Of a DNA stretch of 64,000 nt, positions 241 to 58,010 are shown piece by piece. A model generated the notes under the pieces. It had not been told where the DNA came from and searched no databases. It worked only from the letters and a program-made list of their open reading frames with translations. Source of the stretch: Candidatus Woesearchaeota archaeon. Its GTDB lineage: Archaea; Nanobdellota; Nanobdellia; Woesearchaeales; UBA9989. The DNA lies in contig DUKZ01000004.1 in assembly GCA_013329045.1 (NCBI GenBank), positions 1 to 64,000 on the forward strand, read 5' to 3'. Both the position numbers and the translations under genes were made by a program. The first letter of the stretch is position 1. Each line of letters starts with the position of its first letter.

Positions 241-1485
241 ATGCCTATGATAACGATTCCAGGATGCGAGGATCTGCACCTTATTGCTCGAACCCCCAAT
301 AGCACAATGTATGAAGGCCTCCGGGATGGAATTGAGGTCATCATCAAAGTCCCAGACATGGATGAAAAGGAACAATCCAGATTTATCTCTCAAGGGAAAA
401 AACTGCTGAGACTCAAACATCCAAACATCGCTGAGACACTTGGCTATGGGATTGACCCGCTCCCTTTTCTTGTCACCAGACGGGTAGATGGAGAAAGCTT
501 GGATCAAAAGTTAATCTCCCCCCTCCCAGTAAAAGAATCAGCAAGATACATCCTGGACGCCTGCTTGGCACTCCAATACCTGTATCGCTGTGGTTTTTCC
601 TGCCATGGGGACCTCCATCCAGAAAATATCCTCATCGCGGGAGACCATGCAATCATCATTGATTTGCCGCTTACTCAGCCGGAACATATCATAGGGAGCA
701 GAGCACGGTATCTTCCCCCCGAAGGCCCAATTGACCAAAGAAGCGATGTCTTTTGTCTTGGAGCATTAGCATATGAGATGATCACCGGGGGACATATCCC
801 AGTCAACCATAGAAGCGACCTCTCTGGAGTGATGTATGGGGTCCCGAAAGCATTGGATGAAGTAATCACCAGAAGCATTGCCATTGACCCAAAGAAGAGA
901 TATAGAAGCGTTCAAGCATTCAAGGCAGCCTTTACTCACGCAACAAGGCAATTATCCCTGAAAAGGAGAAGATCACCATCCTATCGAACGCTGACATGCG
1001 GGATACTCCTTGCCCTTTCAGCAAGCTACCTTGTGGGAGATGTACAAGGACAATTAGAAACACGGAACTTTTTTTACCATCAACTCAATCAGGGAATAGT
1101 TATACGGCAAGAAGGGGTCATCCCTGAAGGGCTGCCGGGTGAAGGCAGCCATATCCATATGGCATATCTTGCAGATTGGTACCGGAAAGATATAGCCCAA
1201 AGGAGCAGAGAAGAACAAGAGGGGTTTGGGATAGTTCTCTATATGAAACTAAATCATCCTGATGTCACGGTAGATCATGGATTCCTTGTCCACGCAACAG
1301 AGCAGCCATATTATGAAGAGATGCTTGGCGCAGTAGAACAGTTTCGAGGTTATATCAATGACCCGCGCCAGTATGATGCAGCACTGCTTTCCAGGTCACG
1401 GATTCCAAGGATACTAGAACATGCGTTTCCCCCGCCAAGATTAGATCATCCACTCAGGAGGAATCAACAAGGCCAGGGGGTATGA
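241..1485 (+). CDS. Membrane-anchored Ser/Thr protein kinase-like protein, partly degenerate
   Basis: The N-terminal ~235 residues have the eukaryotic-type kinase fold: a candidate beta-3 lysine (K36 in VIIKV), a catalytic loop HGDLHPEN (residues 122-129), and a YLPPE segment standing for the APE motif. The magnesium-binding DFG is replaced by DLP (141-143) and no clear glycine-rich loop is visible, so activity is uncertain; it could be a pseudokinase. A basic stretch and one membrane helix (about 249-267) lead to a ~145-residue C-terminal part, probably outside the cell, that I do not recognise. The ATG follows AGAGGT at good spacing. The gene converges on an ECF sigma factor gene, ending 5 nt from its stop, which hints at a signalling link but does not prove one. 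Confidence 0.8.
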   Translation: MPMITIPGCEDLHLIARTPNSTMYEGLRDGIEVIIKVPDMDEKEQSRFISQGKKLLRLKHPNIAETLGYGIDPLPFLVTRRVDGESLDQKLISPLPVKESARYILDACLALQYLYRCGFSCHGDLHPENILIAGDHAIIIDLPLTQPEHIIGSRARYLPPEGPIDQRSDVFCLGALAYEMITGGHIPVNHRSDLSGVMYGVPKALDEVITRSIAIDPKKRYRSVQAFKAAFTHATRQLSLKRRRSPSYRTLTCGILLALSASYLVGDVQGQLETRNFFYHQLNQGIVIRQEGVIPEGLPGEGSHIHMAYLADWYRKDIAQRSREEQEGFGIVLYMKLNHPDVTVDHGFLVHATEQPYYEEMLGAVEQFRGYINDPRQYDAALLSRSRIPRILEHAFPPPRLDHPLRRNQQGQGV

Positions 1486-1490
1486 GGAGA

Positions 1491-2051
1491 TTATACTTCC
1501 TGCAAGCGATATTTAACCAGCAGGTCTGGAGCTTTTTCTCCCATTTGTCTTCTCATATATGCTCTTGCGCGAAATAACCGAGATCTTACCGTCCCTAATG
1601 GAATGCCAAGGGCACTTGCTATCATCTCATAAGTATAATCTTCTATGTCTGCTAAAACCAATACCTGCCTGTACTCATCAGGTAAATCGAGGACCATGTC
1701 ATGCAAACGATCATCCAATGATTGATTGGTCAATGCATTCATAGCTCTTATCGCCTGGTGATCCGGCACTTCAAGGACATCTTCTTCCTGATCAACTGGC
1801 ACATTTTTTTCTTTCCTTCGATACTGCGAGCTAAATAGATTCCTTTGGATGCGCAATAGCCAATTGTAGAGGTTCCCCTCATGATACTTATCCAGATTTT
1901 TTAGTGCTCTGACCATCGTCTCCTGCACGAGATCATGTGCATTATCAGGGTCACTGGTCAATCTTAAGGCATTATTATAGAGATACCCCCGCATTCCCGC
2001 AATCCTTTCAGAGAGAGATTGCTGATGAGAGGATGCCATGATATAGACCAT
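1491..2051 (-). CDS. ECF-type RNA polymerase sigma factor (sigma-70 family) in an archaeal context
   Basis: The 186-residue length suits ECF sigma factors. Region 2 spans about 20-82, with the core AHDLVQETMVRAL (residues 38-50) and a tryptophan/arginine-rich end (NWLLRIQRN). Region 4 spans about 112-172, with a helix-turn-helix centred on MIASALGIPLGTVRSRLFRAR. The linker between them is short and acidic, and region 1.1 and region 3 are absent, as is usual for the class. In bacteria such proteins direct RNA polymerase to extracytoplasmic-stress promoters. Archaeal RNA polymerase normally uses TBP/TFB, so the target here is unclear. No anti-sigma gene is adjacent; the converging kinase-like membrane protein is the only nearby candidate partner. 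Start could be residue 1 or Met5. Confidence 0.9.
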   Translation of the reverse strand: MVYIMASSHQQSLSERIAGMRGYLYNNALRLTSDPDNAHDLVQETMVRALKNLDKYHEGNLYNWLLRIQRNLFSSQYRRKEKNVPVDQEEDVLEVPDHQAIRAMNALTNQSLDDRLHDMVLDLPDEYRQVLVLADIEDYTYEMIASALGIPLGTVRSRLFRARAYMRRQMGEKAPDLLVKYRLQEV

Positions 2052-2066
2052 AAAGAGTGAATAGTT

Positions 2067-2082
2067 GTTTATACTATAAAAA
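2067..2082 (-). promoter_or_regulatory. TATA-like promoter of the sigma factor gene
   Basis: Read on the minus strand, TTTATAGTATAAAC is centred about 25 nt before the ATG at 2051. This is the archaeal spacing for a transcript starting at or near the start codon. The sigma gene therefore appears to be read from an ordinary TBP/TFB promoter. Confidence 0.55.
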
Positions 2083-2171
2083 GTTTACGTAATTATTACC
2101 ACTAATAAGTCGTAATATTCAAAGAATGTTTTAATCGACCACTCAAAATCAACCATTCAAGGGAAAAAGGC

Positions 2172-53684: not shown

Positions 53685-56600
53685 CTAAATTTCTGCATGA
53701 GGTGGTATTTCTATGCAGGCAACGTCGCCTGGAATATCTTGGTTTGAACATGAATTCATTTGGAAGCATTGAGGGGAACCTGGTATTGGTGGACAGGGTC
53801 CGTCCTGAGGATGATTCTGGTAAAAAGCATTTAAGCAATTTGATGCACATTCACCCGCAGTTTTACCCATGAATGGGTAAGGGTCAGGGGGGAGGGCTGG
53901 TTGATAATTACAACCACCGCCCTGTTGTCCAGAACCCATTCCAATTGAATAACTGATTGAACATCCAAACTGAACATGAACCACACAAGTAGCTTTGCAA
54001 GCACCATTATCCCCCACATATTGACAGGATGCACCCTCACCCGAACAAGACCCCTTTTGAGTACCGGGGTAGTCCCACTGATACATATGATCGTTATAAC
54101 AATCCCCGGGACAATTATCATGACAGTCTGATTGAGTACCATAAGGCCAACCAGATCCGTCAGGGCATGCCCAATACTCTCCCCCATCATTACAATATTC
54201 AATATTAACTGTGTTGTAATCACCGCAGACATATCTATAATTCCCAACATCAGCTTTAGATGAACAAGTATCTGATGGTGAATTCCTCCTGGTCACTGAA
54301 CACCCATTAGCATCACCGCCAATCCAATTAGTGTACATCGAGCAGTATGTACTAAGGCAAGCATCATTGTTTTGGTTTAGATAATTACAATACCCTGATA
54401 TTGCATCATGTCGGCATAAACCACTCGTACCAGGAAGGAGAATCACACATGTATCCTGCATGCAAGCAGATGTTTCACAATCACCATCCGAGTAACATTC
54501 ACCCCATGTACCACCAGAAGAGGAGGAAGAACTACTTGAAGATGAGCTTGAACCTCCTGAAGAAGAACTAGATGAGCTACTAGAAGAACCTCCTGAAGAG
54601 GAAGTAGATGATGAAGAGCTGGAAGAACTGCTCGAACTTGATGATGAGGAGGAACCTCCTGAAGAACTTGAAGACGACGAGCTGCTTGAGCTAGATGAGC
54701 TCCCCGAGGAACTTGAAGATGAACTTGAACTGGAAGAAGAGGAGCTACTCGATGAGCTAGAAGAACTAGAAGAAGAGGAACTAGAAGAACCACCAGAAGA
54801 AGAACTAGAACCGCTAGAAGAAGAACTAGAAGAAGAAGAGGAACTACTACTAGAACTAGAAGAAGAGCTCGAACTAGAAGAACCACCAGAAGAACTACTA
54901 GAACTAGAAGAGGAAGAGCTAGAACTGCTTGATGATGAACTGGAAGAAGAGCTGCTAGAAGAAGAACTAGATGATCCGCCAGAAGAACTCGATGAGGAAG
55001 AGGTTGATGAACTACTCGATGATGAACTAGAAGAGCTCGATGAGCCACCAGAGGAACTGCTCGAAGATGAACTTGATGAGGAACTGCTTGATCCGGAACA
55101 CTGGCTCGTGTCTTCTGACAAGTAATCATATTCATAAGGACAATCCTTGTAGCAATAGATATCAGGCCTCTGCCAGGAATAGGCTTGCATCTCATTTGGC
55201 TGACAGGTGCCATCGCCACAATATTCCTGAGCACAATCAATCGAACAAGTAATGGGGCTTTCATCCGGTGCACAGTATGTATCCCCGCACCTGCCGCAGT
55301 CCTGCCAGCACAGCTCGCCGCTGCCCCACATGAAGCTTTCTAGCTCGAGGAAACTGCAGAATCCATTCCCGCAATCGCTTGGAACAAGCCTGTCCCAACA
55401 ATAATCAGGACAACGGTAGTAATTCGCCGGGTCATCGCACCATTCAGGGAAATAACTAGAAGCGCCATACCAGCAATCCTGGCAATCAGAGCAGGAGGGA
55501 GAGCTTTCATGAGCGCCGCACAATCCATCTCCACACTCATCGCAATCAAAGGGGCAATTTGCATGCGACTCACCATAACCACAGGTCCTATCGCCACAAT
55601 AGCCGCAATCCTGGCTGCACGTAATGGTGTTTTCATTTCCTCTGCAATACCCATCACCGCACACATTGCAATCATCGGGGCAATTGACCATTGATTCGCT
55701 TGCATCACACTCATCATCACCGCAGACAGTCTCGCTATCAATGAACCGTGACATGCAGGCAGGATCGAACCGGTCAATCAATACATCTGCATCATTATCA
55801 ATGCTGTCGCTGCACTGCGTCGTGCCGCCATCTTCAGAATTATCAGAGCGGCTCTCACAACCAAAATCACATGGATAATCAATATCGCCATCCTCATCAT
55901 TATCAATGCCATCAGCGCATTCGGGCATTATGACCGGATGAGACTCGAGATCATCATAGTATCCAGAACAATCAGGATCTTCAAGATCAATGAACCCGTC
56001 GAGGTCATCATCAATAAAATTAGAACATTGGGTCTCACGGACAAGGACATACGCTGTTGCCTTAGCACAATTCGCCACGTCCTCTACCTGGATAGTGCAT
56101 GATCCTGGCGCCTCTGCAGTCACAGTCATTACCGAGTAAGGGTCTTGAGTTTCCTTGTTGCCAAGAGAGCAGGCATTTCGCTGGCCATAGATATTATACT
56201 CATTCGAAAGGAACGTCCATACATAGTCAGGATAATTAGGCGTGCCGGATGCATAGATATGGGCAAATTCCTCCCTGATGAGCTCAAAATAATCCTGGAG
56301 GATAGTAATTTGACCGGATTCTATCTGGCAGTTTGCATTGCAGCCATCGCAGCCGACATTATTGCCATCATCACATTCCTCTTCGATCCCCAACACGTTT
56401 GGCTGATTCAGCTGGCCATCACCACAATAGCCAAGGCAAGCGAGGCTGTCAGATAGGAGACAGATATCTTGTCCAGCCTCTTGGATCCGCTGACAAGCCT
56501 GGTTCACACAAGTATATCTCCAGTCTGAACAATCGATTGCGCAATTGCTTTGGTCTTCCCATACCTCACAGATGTCATCTCCGCAAGAGCAATCAGTTGG

Positions 56601-57986
56601 ATTATTGCAGGAAGGAACACCGCCAGCATACCACTCCTGCACGCACGTATTCTGGCTGCATCCAAGACGATACGTCTCTGTCTGGCAGACAGAAGAGCAT
56701 CCATCACTCGATGCGGTGTTGCCATCATCGCACTGTTCTGCTATACCCTGGCCATCGGGCGATTGAATGATGTTATCGCCGCAGGATGTGAGCTGGCAGG
56801 TCGTCGAGCACATATCTGAGTTGATCGTATTTGCATCATCGCACTGCTCTTGGATGCCCTCACCATCAGGCGACTGGACAAGGCCATCACCGCAGGCAGT
56901 GAGAATACATTGATTCGAACAGGTATCAGTCTCAACTATGTTCCCATCATCACACTCTTCCCCACTATCAAGAGCGCCATCACCGCAGATAGCAGGTCCT
57001 CCAGATGATGAACTAGAACTGCTAGAAGAAGAACCACCAGAAGAACTAGAAGAAGAACTTGAACCTGAAGAAGAGCTAGAAGAAGAGGAACTACTACTAG
57101 AACTAGAAGAAGAGCTCGAACTAGAAGAACTAGAAGAACCACCAGAAGAACTAGAAGAAGAACTTGAACCAGAAGAAGAAGTAGAAGAACTTGAAGAAGA
57201 AGAACCACCAGAAGAACTGCTAGAACTAGAAGAAGAAGTAGAAGAACTTGAAGAAGAACTCGATGAGCCTCCAGAAGAGGAGGAAGAAGAACTAGAAGAA
57301 CCACCAGAAGAACTGGAAGAAGAACTTGAACCAGAAGAAGAAGTAGAAGAAGAACTGCTAGAACTAGAAGAACCACCAGAAGAACTACTAGAACTAGAAG
57401 AAGAAGTAGAAGAACTTGAAGAAGAACTCGATGAGCCTCCAGAAGAGGAGGAAGAAGAACTAGAAGAACCACCAGAAGAACTAGAAGAAGAACTTGAACC
57501 AGAAGAAGAAGTAGAAGAAGAACTGCTAGAACTAGAAGAACCACCAGAAGATGAACCCCCACCACTCAGTGCCTGGCCGCAAAAGAGATCCTGAGTCAAC
57601 TGGAGTGAGGGGCTGCCAATACCTGTTACTTGCTCATCACCCATCGGGATAAGATACCCGTTCTGATCCTGAAGGAAAATGCAGAAATCGCCCTTGATGT
57701 TCAATTGGCGGCGAATCTTCTCATATGCAATTTCCGGATCTGGCTCTGCAGCGATGAGGGGATACACTTTCTCCTCTGCTATCTGATTACCTGGTGCAAT
57801 ATTGATCTGTGTCGATGATTCTTTTGCAGTCACTTCCTCCCCAATATGCGTTGCCTCAGTCTCTAACTGCTGCAATGGCGGCGGGGAAAACCAGGTCATG
57901 AGCACAATGAAACCAACAACAATAACAAAGAAGATAGTGAGCGCTACGAGCAACTCTACTGATAGTACCTGACCCCTCTTTTTCAT
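53685..57986 (-). CDS. Giant poly-serine, Cys-rich surface protein with pilin-like N-terminus
   Basis: A 1433-residue protein. The N-terminus MKKRGQVLSVELLVALTIF fits an archaeal class III (pilin-type) signal: basic residues, then GQxxSxE and a hydrophobic helix (about 11-33). After a ~105-residue domain come two long Ser tracts with Gly/Thr interruptions (about 140-330 and 967-1155). Between them lie Cys repeats of the CGDGxxxxxEECDDGN (DUF4215) type, CxDGIDNDxDGxID acidic repeats like metal-binding MopE motifs, and CGDGxCxxxE repeats. A final ~280-residue Cys-rich region follows. A CTTATAAAC box lies about 26 nt before the ATG. Confidence 0.8.
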   Translation of the reverse strand: MKKRGQVLSVELLVALTIFFVIVVGFIVLMTWFSPPPLQQLETEATHIGEEVTAKESSTQINIAPGNQIAEEKVYPLIAAEPDPEIAYEKIRRQLNIKGDFCIFLQDQNGYLIPMGDEQVTGIGSPSLQLTQDLFCGQALSGGGSSSGGSSSSSSSSSTSSSGSSSSSSSSGGSSSSSSSSSGGSSSSSSSSSTSSSSSSSSSGGSSSSSSSSSTSSSGSSSSSSSSGGSSSSSSSSSGGSSSSSSSSSTSSSSSSSSSGGSSSSSSSTSSSGSSSSSSSSGGSSSSSSSSSSSSSSSSSSSSSSSSGSSSSSSSSGGSSSSSSSSSSGGPAICGDGALDSGEECDDGNIVETDTCSNQCILTACGDGLVQSPDGEGIQEQCDDANTINSDMCSTTCQLTSCGDNIIQSPDGQGIAEQCDDGNTASSDGCSSVCQTETYRLGCSQNTCVQEWYAGGVPSCNNPTDCSCGDDICEVWEDQSNCAIDCSDWRYTCVNQACQRIQEAGQDICLLSDSLACLGYCGDGQLNQPNVLGIEEECDDGNNVGCDGCNANCQIESGQITILQDYFELIREEFAHIYASGTPNYPDYVWTFLSNEYNIYGQRNACSLGNKETQDPYSVMTVTAEAPGSCTIQVEDVANCAKATAYVLVRETQCSNFIDDDLDGFIDLEDPDCSGYYDDLESHPVIMPECADGIDNDEDGDIDYPCDFGCESRSDNSEDGGTTQCSDSIDNDADVLIDRFDPACMSRFIDSETVCGDDECDASESMVNCPDDCNVCGDGYCRGNENTITCSQDCGYCGDRTCGYGESHANCPFDCDECGDGLCGAHESSPSCSDCQDCWYGASSYFPEWCDDPANYYRCPDYCWDRLVPSDCGNGFCSFLELESFMWGSGELCWQDCGRCGDTYCAPDESPITCSIDCAQEYCGDGTCQPNEMQAYSWQRPDIYCYKDCPYEYDYLSEDTSQCSGSSSSSSSSSSSSSSGGSSSSSSSSSSSSSTSSSSSSSGGSSSSSSSSSSSSSSSSSSSSSSSSSSSSSGGSSSSSSSSSSSSSSSSSSSSSSSGSSSSSGGSSSSSSSSSSSSSSSSSSSSSSSSSSSSGSSSSSSSSSSSSSSGGSSSSSSSSSSSSSSSSTSSSGGSSSSSSSSSSGGSSSSSSSSSSSSGGTWGECYSDGDCETSACMQDTCVILLPGTSGLCRHDAISGYCNYLNQNNDACLSTYCSMYTNWIGGDANGCSVTRRNSPSDTCSSKADVGNYRYVCGDYNTVNIEYCNDGGEYWACPDGSGWPYGTQSDCHDNCPGDCYNDHMYQWDYPGTQKGSCSGEGASCQYVGDNGACKATCVVHVQFGCSISYSIGMGSGQQGGGCNYQPALPPDPYPFMGKTAGECASNCLNAFYQNHPQDGPCPPIPGSPQCFQMNSCSNQDIPGDVACIEIPPHAEI
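57197..57546. repeat. 168-bp near-identical tandem duplication within poly-serine region
   Basis: The same sequence, for example at cgatgagcct (57261 and 57429), recurs 168 bp apart with only a few changes over about 170 bp per copy. 168 bp is 56 codons, so it lengthens the Ser tract in frame. Recent expansion is likely. Confidence 0.85.
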
Positions 57987-58010
57987 TACAGACGATCCAG
58001 AATTTTATAG

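Follow-up and report, generated by a model that had tools for sequence, protein, structure and literature searches.

A bacterial-type ECF sigma factor gene resident in the genome of a Woesearchaeota archaeon

The ECF sigma factor gene and its neighbors

The window analyzed here is the whole 64,000 nucleotide stretch that begins at base 1 of a Candidatus Woesearchaeota contig of 105,536 bp (contig C17). Near its left end lie two convergent genes, encoding a PknB-like protein kinase and an ECF sigma factor (Table 1), whose stop codons are 5 bp apart. The ECF reading frame begins with ATG and encodes 186 amino acids with no internal stop codon. Its product scores far above the Pfam cut-offs for Sigma70_r2 and Sigma70_r4_2 (48.9 and 59.9 bits, respectively), with additional overlapping matches to Sigma70_r4 and Sigma70_ECF, and it reaches 79.4 bits against the NCBIfam sigma70-ECF superfamily model (cut-off 42.9). 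The top solved relatives are Mycobacterium tuberculosis SigH and SigE (E 2.9e-22), which it resembles in its two domains, sequence and fold; it is about 30–34% identical to them, and unlike them it has no evident anti-sigma gene and belongs to a cell with an archaeal polymerase. In an AlphaFold2 model (pLDDT 82.6) compared by Foldseek, sigma2 superposes on the SigR sigma2 fragment at 1.0–1.1 Å and sigma4 on solved sigma4 fragments at 1.4–1.6 Å; TM-scores over the whole chain are low, since the linker sets the two domains in another arrangement. The protein consists of sigma2 and sigma4 only, as is typical of the ECF class (sigma70 group 4), whose members are about 200 amino acids long and lack sigma1.1 and sigma3, and the sigma2 and sigma4 residues listed in Table 1 match those of its bacterial relatives. 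Profiles, PDB matches and model all agree with the original prediction of a bacterial-type ECF sigma factor with intact regions 2 and 4 and an intact helix-turn-helix.

Table 1. Features at the left end of the window
Feature	Position	Strand	Remarks
PknB-like protein kinase gene	241–1485	+	Pfam kinase families over cut-off; convergent with the ECF gene
ECF sigma factor gene	1491–2051	-	186 aa; Pfam, NCBIfam and PDB matches; AlphaFold2 model and Foldseek
Sigma4 domain with helix-turn-helix	1533–1718	-	About residues 112–173; Pfam Sigma70_r4_2 on residues 114–164
Key residues of sigma4			G153, T154, S157, R158, R161
Sigma2 domain	1806–2051	-	Residues 1–82; Pfam Sigma70_r2 on residues 22–81
Core-binding helix of sigma2			A38, D40, Q43, E44; further sigma2 residues W64, N71
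TATA box TTTTTATA	2075–2082	-	Archaeal, leaderless type; starts 31 bp upstream of the ATG
Palindrome TTATTA-CCAC-TAATAA (TTATTACCACTAATAA)	2093–2108		Perfect; 10 bp upstream of the ECF TATA box

In alignment with PknB (E 6.4e-14) the kinase retains the lysine, the aspartates of HGD and DFG and the N, and it has one likely membrane segment at about residues 250–268, where hydropathy is moderate (1.55 over 19 residues). Upstream of the ECF gene, on the same strand, lies a nucleoside/AMP phosphorylase gene that exceeds the cut-offs of two NCBIfam models; it had been predicted to encode an archaeal AMP phosphorylase, and NCBIfam indicates that it is of archaeal type, with the AMP phosphorylase equivalog model itself 0.7 bits under its cut-off. 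A cognate anti-sigma gene adjoining the ECF gene is usual, if not universal, and none is found beside this one, whose neighbors are the kinase and phosphorylase genes. The kinase is a possible partner of the ECF protein.

Hanks-type kinase genes adjoin ECF genes in group ECF43 (EcfP/PknT and EcfK/PknS), where uncharged residues and a phospho-threonine take the place of the DxxD motif of sigma2.2 (PMC13147305). The locus in the window is like ECF43 in that its kinase gene adjoins the ECF gene, but the two genes are convergent, and the motif, aligned by eye, is not replaced in that way; it reads N37-A38-H39-D40, so that D40 is retained and a histidine, H39, stands at the position aligned with T51 of EcfK. 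Because of this motif, assignment of the pair to ECF43 was rejected. The pairing was also not seen in the other archaea sampled, and an ECF match and a kinase match occur together in only two genomes besides the window's own (G028 and G076).

Promoters of the ECF gene and of the genome

A TATA motif learned from 195 genes of the same genome peaks 29–32 bp ahead of the ATG, in accord with the predicted use of TATA-type promoters; a peak at this distance is the signature of leaderless genes. The TTTTTATA box of the ECF gene lies at the 91st percentile of scores for this motif and was matched by 40 of 5000 shuffles, and the kinase gene has no TATA box at the leaderless position. The palindrome TTATTACCACTAATAA, which was noticed post hoc, has its sole copy within the window here and is a possible operator. 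As a regulon motif it was rejected, since the only copies in 255 loci are overlapping copies of the same site.

Genome-wide, all three sigma-plus genomes examined in this way (the window's own, G062 and G122) have TATA promoters that peak at about −30, the leaderless distance, and the same three genomes display no consistent excess of sigma70-type promoter pairs; G122 has 20 against an expected 13.3 ± 3.4 at two mismatches and no excess at three. ECF-type pairs are not enriched in the window's own genome. A check for shared −35/−10-like motifs had been proposed with the original prediction, and these promoter pairs offer no evidence that bacterial-type initiation operates across the genome, but a small regulon would escape such tests. 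ECF sigma factors in general bind core polymerase and start transcription at −35/−10 promoters; for the window's protein, the promoter pairs and the differing clamp contacts described below bear on this activity only indirectly.

Residence of the gene in the archaeal genome

The ECF gene lies near the very start of its contig, and a join was therefore tested for; the composition and promoter tests span about 0.4 Mb of the 1.74 Mb genome. Bases 61–2052 are at the 54th percentile of tetranucleotide distance among 2-kb pieces of the same genome. None of 10 GC-matched pieces from other genomes of the phylum equals their correlation with the genome mean, and one of the 10 lies nearer that mean by tetranucleotide distance. 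Codon use is ordinary in the kinase gene (43rd percentile of the genome's own genes) and unusual yet in range in the ECF gene (9th percentile). An assembly chimera or contamination, in which the contig would be bacterial up to 2.05 kb, might be suspected from the position of the kinase and ECF genes at the extreme contig start and from the bacterial type of both. It is nonetheless extremely unlikely, as the composition is typical of the genome, an archaeal leaderless TATA box is at the expected position and other ECF genes lie inside archaeal contigs. The chimeric join that the original prediction would have regarded as fatal was rejected on these grounds, there being no break in composition and a native promoter. 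The strongest tetranucleotide outlier among the own-genome pieces compared lies elsewhere, at 54,001–58,000 of the window.

Distribution among related genomes

Sigma70 region 2 matches are present in 128 of 371 sampled genomes of the phylum, or about a third, some of them on very long contigs (a single contig of 1.3 Mb in G004 and one of 1.47 Mb in G062). The original prediction rightly stated that sigma factors have been reported before in archaea, but its "a few" genomes understates their number. BLAST with the window's ECF protein finds ECF-like genes in 28 of the 371 genomes, its own included, and several of them lie inside long contigs; one (L041) has GatB/GatE and CDC48 genes as its neighbors. 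The closest archaeal match is 38% identical, and no close ortholog was found among the 371 genomes. Absence from all related genomes had been named as another refuting result, and the 27 other genomes remove it for this kind of gene, but not for this particular gene. No anti-sigma neighbor is evident beside 26 archaeal ECF genes, as judged by lists of open reading frames and counts of membrane segments rather than by profiles.

Sigma-70 family proteins of Woesearchaeota were reportedly described by Rinke et al. in 2013. Sigma-70 has since been documented in Woesearchaeota with mis-binning excluded and no anti-sigma factor found (Castelle et al. 2021, PMC8204110). Likened by description, that family (fam00359) resembles the ECF gene of the window as a bacterial-type sigma70 resident beside TBP and TFB and with no anti-sigma found; mis-binning was ruled out there and is disfavored here, and the sigma-70 family was reported whole there, whereas here the two-domain ECF type is separated from it and its promoter, its origin and the polymerase clamp are analyzed. 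The ECF gene is thus a real, resident gene of bacterial origin and a further member of a class already reported in Woesearchaeota; there is good support for its identity, residence and bacterial ancestry, all of which are very probable.

Bacterial relatives and origin

A quick tree of 108 ECF proteins, which has long branches and a pattern-limited sample, places the window's protein where the original prediction had suggested looking for it, among bacterial ECF proteins. It forms a long branch there, nearest by path to Planctomycetota and with no well-supported sister. Other Woesearchaeota ECF proteins (L034 and L244) are nested among Rokubacteria (SH-aLRT 99), and a further archaeal pair from one genus (L043 and L051) are sisters. 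It fits best with these sequences that the archaeal ECF genes represent separate transfers from bacteria, the exact source being unsure. The window's protein alone, used as query against genome contigs, found no relative, and bacterial relatives were found with a two-sequence alignment as query; the closest are ECF proteins of Planctomycetota, Ignavibacteriota and Balneolota (L181, L183 and L176; 39–43% identity). Their relative L189 has a zf-HC2 (zinc-finger) anti-sigma gene downstream, unlike the gene in the window, and the genes downstream of L183 and L202 have no Pfam match. The orthologs L043 and L051, which represent an archaeal ECF gene other than that of the window, have kept their neighbors, their frame and a TATTTATA box at −32, with pN 0.34 versus pS 0.86.

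The sigma contact face and the archaeal clamp

The genome that contains the window has one archaeal Rpo1′, one TBP and one TFB, and no second beta′ type was found in it. Among 27 archaeal ECF proteins the best conserved columns are D40 (the top column), W64 and N71; next come sigma4 residues, R158 and R161 being among the best kept, and Q43. D40 and Q43 sit in the core-binding helix of sigma2, and their conservation may in part be inherited from the bacterial donors. In the EcfK holoenzyme as modeled by AF3, beta′ residues R275, N294, E295, R297 and E301 are close to sigma2.2 (PMC13147305). The Escherichia coli beta′ sequence and numbering at these contact positions were confirmed. At E. coli positions 275, 294, 295, 297, 301 and 302 (we take A302 to be a further sigma contact) the Rpo1′ clamp of the window's genome has I, D, L, D, Y and H, respectively. 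Clamps of 62 sigma-plus and 72 sigma-minus genomes were compared, and none of the 62 sigma-plus clamps has the bacterial residue at these positions. At position 297 an acidic residue (D or E) stands in place of the bacterial R, and an acidic sigma face would therefore meet an acidic clamp. The same clamp coiled coil is bound by TFE and Spt5 (PMC3382729). As to the puzzle raised by the original prediction, a sigma factor beside a TBP/TFB-driven polymerase, the sigma contact face is kept and the clamp is without the bacterial residues.

On 104 clamps, the presence of sigma was apparently linked to the consensus residues at 275, 280, 284 and 308 (p down to 4.8e-6). Co-adaptation of the clamp at 275 and 280 was rejected when this link vanished upon addition of the initially unsampled family f81, in which sigma genes are numerous and the clamp tip is different (A/S/V275, W280). 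D308 is present in 62/62 sigma-plus and 51/72 sigma-minus clamps, and N284 in 62/62 and 57/72. Independent tree pairs give 2.4 for and 0 against this residual link, of 8, which is too few to separate the link from kinship, and the universality of the two residues in sigma-plus genomes may only reflect kinship.

Possible roles of the ECF protein

The explanation that we tentatively prefer as a whole is that this resident, bacterial-derived ECF protein is an accessory regulator that acts on the cell's own transcription; the mode of action within it is at best equally tentative. A Woesearchaeota lineage would have acquired the gene from a bacterium long ago, in keeping with its long branch, and an anti-sigma partner would never have been present or would since have been lost. 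The cell's own TBP/TFB polymerase would transcribe the gene from its putative leaderless archaeal promoter, and the product would act at few promoters, with sigma4 reading DNA and the core-binding face of sigma2 touching the archaeal polymerase clamp or competing there with TFE or Spt4/5. Since it would work at few promoters through sigma4 and a clamp contact, it would be an accessory regulator and not a general initiation factor. The intact domains, the residence of the gene, the single archaeal Rpo1′, TBP and TFB, its bacterial ancestry and the constraint on the contact residues argue for this explanation, as do the conserved L043 and L051; the polymerase, which shows no adaptation to sigma, the lack of enrichment of promoter pairs, the absence of an ortholog of the gene and its codon use argue against it.

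The archaeal clamps without bacterial sigma contacts, the lack of enriched bacterial promoter pairs and the well kept sigma4 could be explained by a protein that only binds DNA, in which sigma4, with or without sigma2, would repress or activate TBP/TFB promoters with no clamp contact. This seems rather unlikely, because such a protein would not need D40, the top column, or the highly conserved Q43. It is also unlikely that the gene, with its intact frame on a long branch and its native promoter, is a bacterial acquisition, expressed but with little or no role and heading for loss; patchy spread (28/371 genomes), separate transfers, the absence of a close relative and the codon use would suit such a gene, but another archaeal ECF gene has the conserved orthologs described above. 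A bacterial-type core-binding face kept while the cell's own clamp is archaeal might instead reflect action on a foreign RNA polymerase of bacterial type, that of a partner cell or of an infecting phage. The N terminus of the protein lacks a hydrophobic stretch of the kind that would point to export, no viral relative was found with the patterns used, and we know of no bacterial host for this archaeon; action on a foreign enzyme is very unlikely, and nothing was found to support the earlier suggestion that a host's bacterial polymerase is recruited.

Bacterial and archaeal transcription differ most sharply in their initiation factors. The new observation here is that the sigma contact side (D40 and Q43) is kept in archaeal ECF proteins and the Rpo1′ clamp lacks its bacterial counterpart. 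If sigma does dock on the archaeal clamp, the bacterial contact residues are not involved. It is conceivable, though doubtful, that archaeal ECF proteins engage polymerase in an undescribed way, either with sigma2 on an unadapted clamp against TFE and Spt4/5, which would amount to hybrid sigma/TBP/TFB initiation, or with a foreign bacterial polymerase. The presence of sigma, TBP/TFB and a single archaeal polymerase in one genome makes the sharing of one enzyme testable.

Other sigma genes

The same genome carries a second sigma gene (contig C42; L063:2153–2995), whose 281 amino acid product is RpoD/RpoS-like with regions 1.2, 2 and 4; this contig also contains the TFB gene, about 14 kb away, and a gene for an archaeal CCA enzyme. 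In several genomes of the phylum region 2 matches are paired about 0.9–1.7 kb apart on one strand (G189:C22, G069:C42, G058:C31, G115:C55, G061:C20 and G042:C9), as if they were tandem sigma genes. Two longer frames were noted by eye. The 758 amino acid frame of L006 comprises an RpoD-like sigma and, downstream in the same frame, an apparent C-terminal Cro/C1-type helix-turn-helix, and the 541 amino acid frame of L030 has extra region 4-like stretches beyond the C-terminal domain of its sigma.
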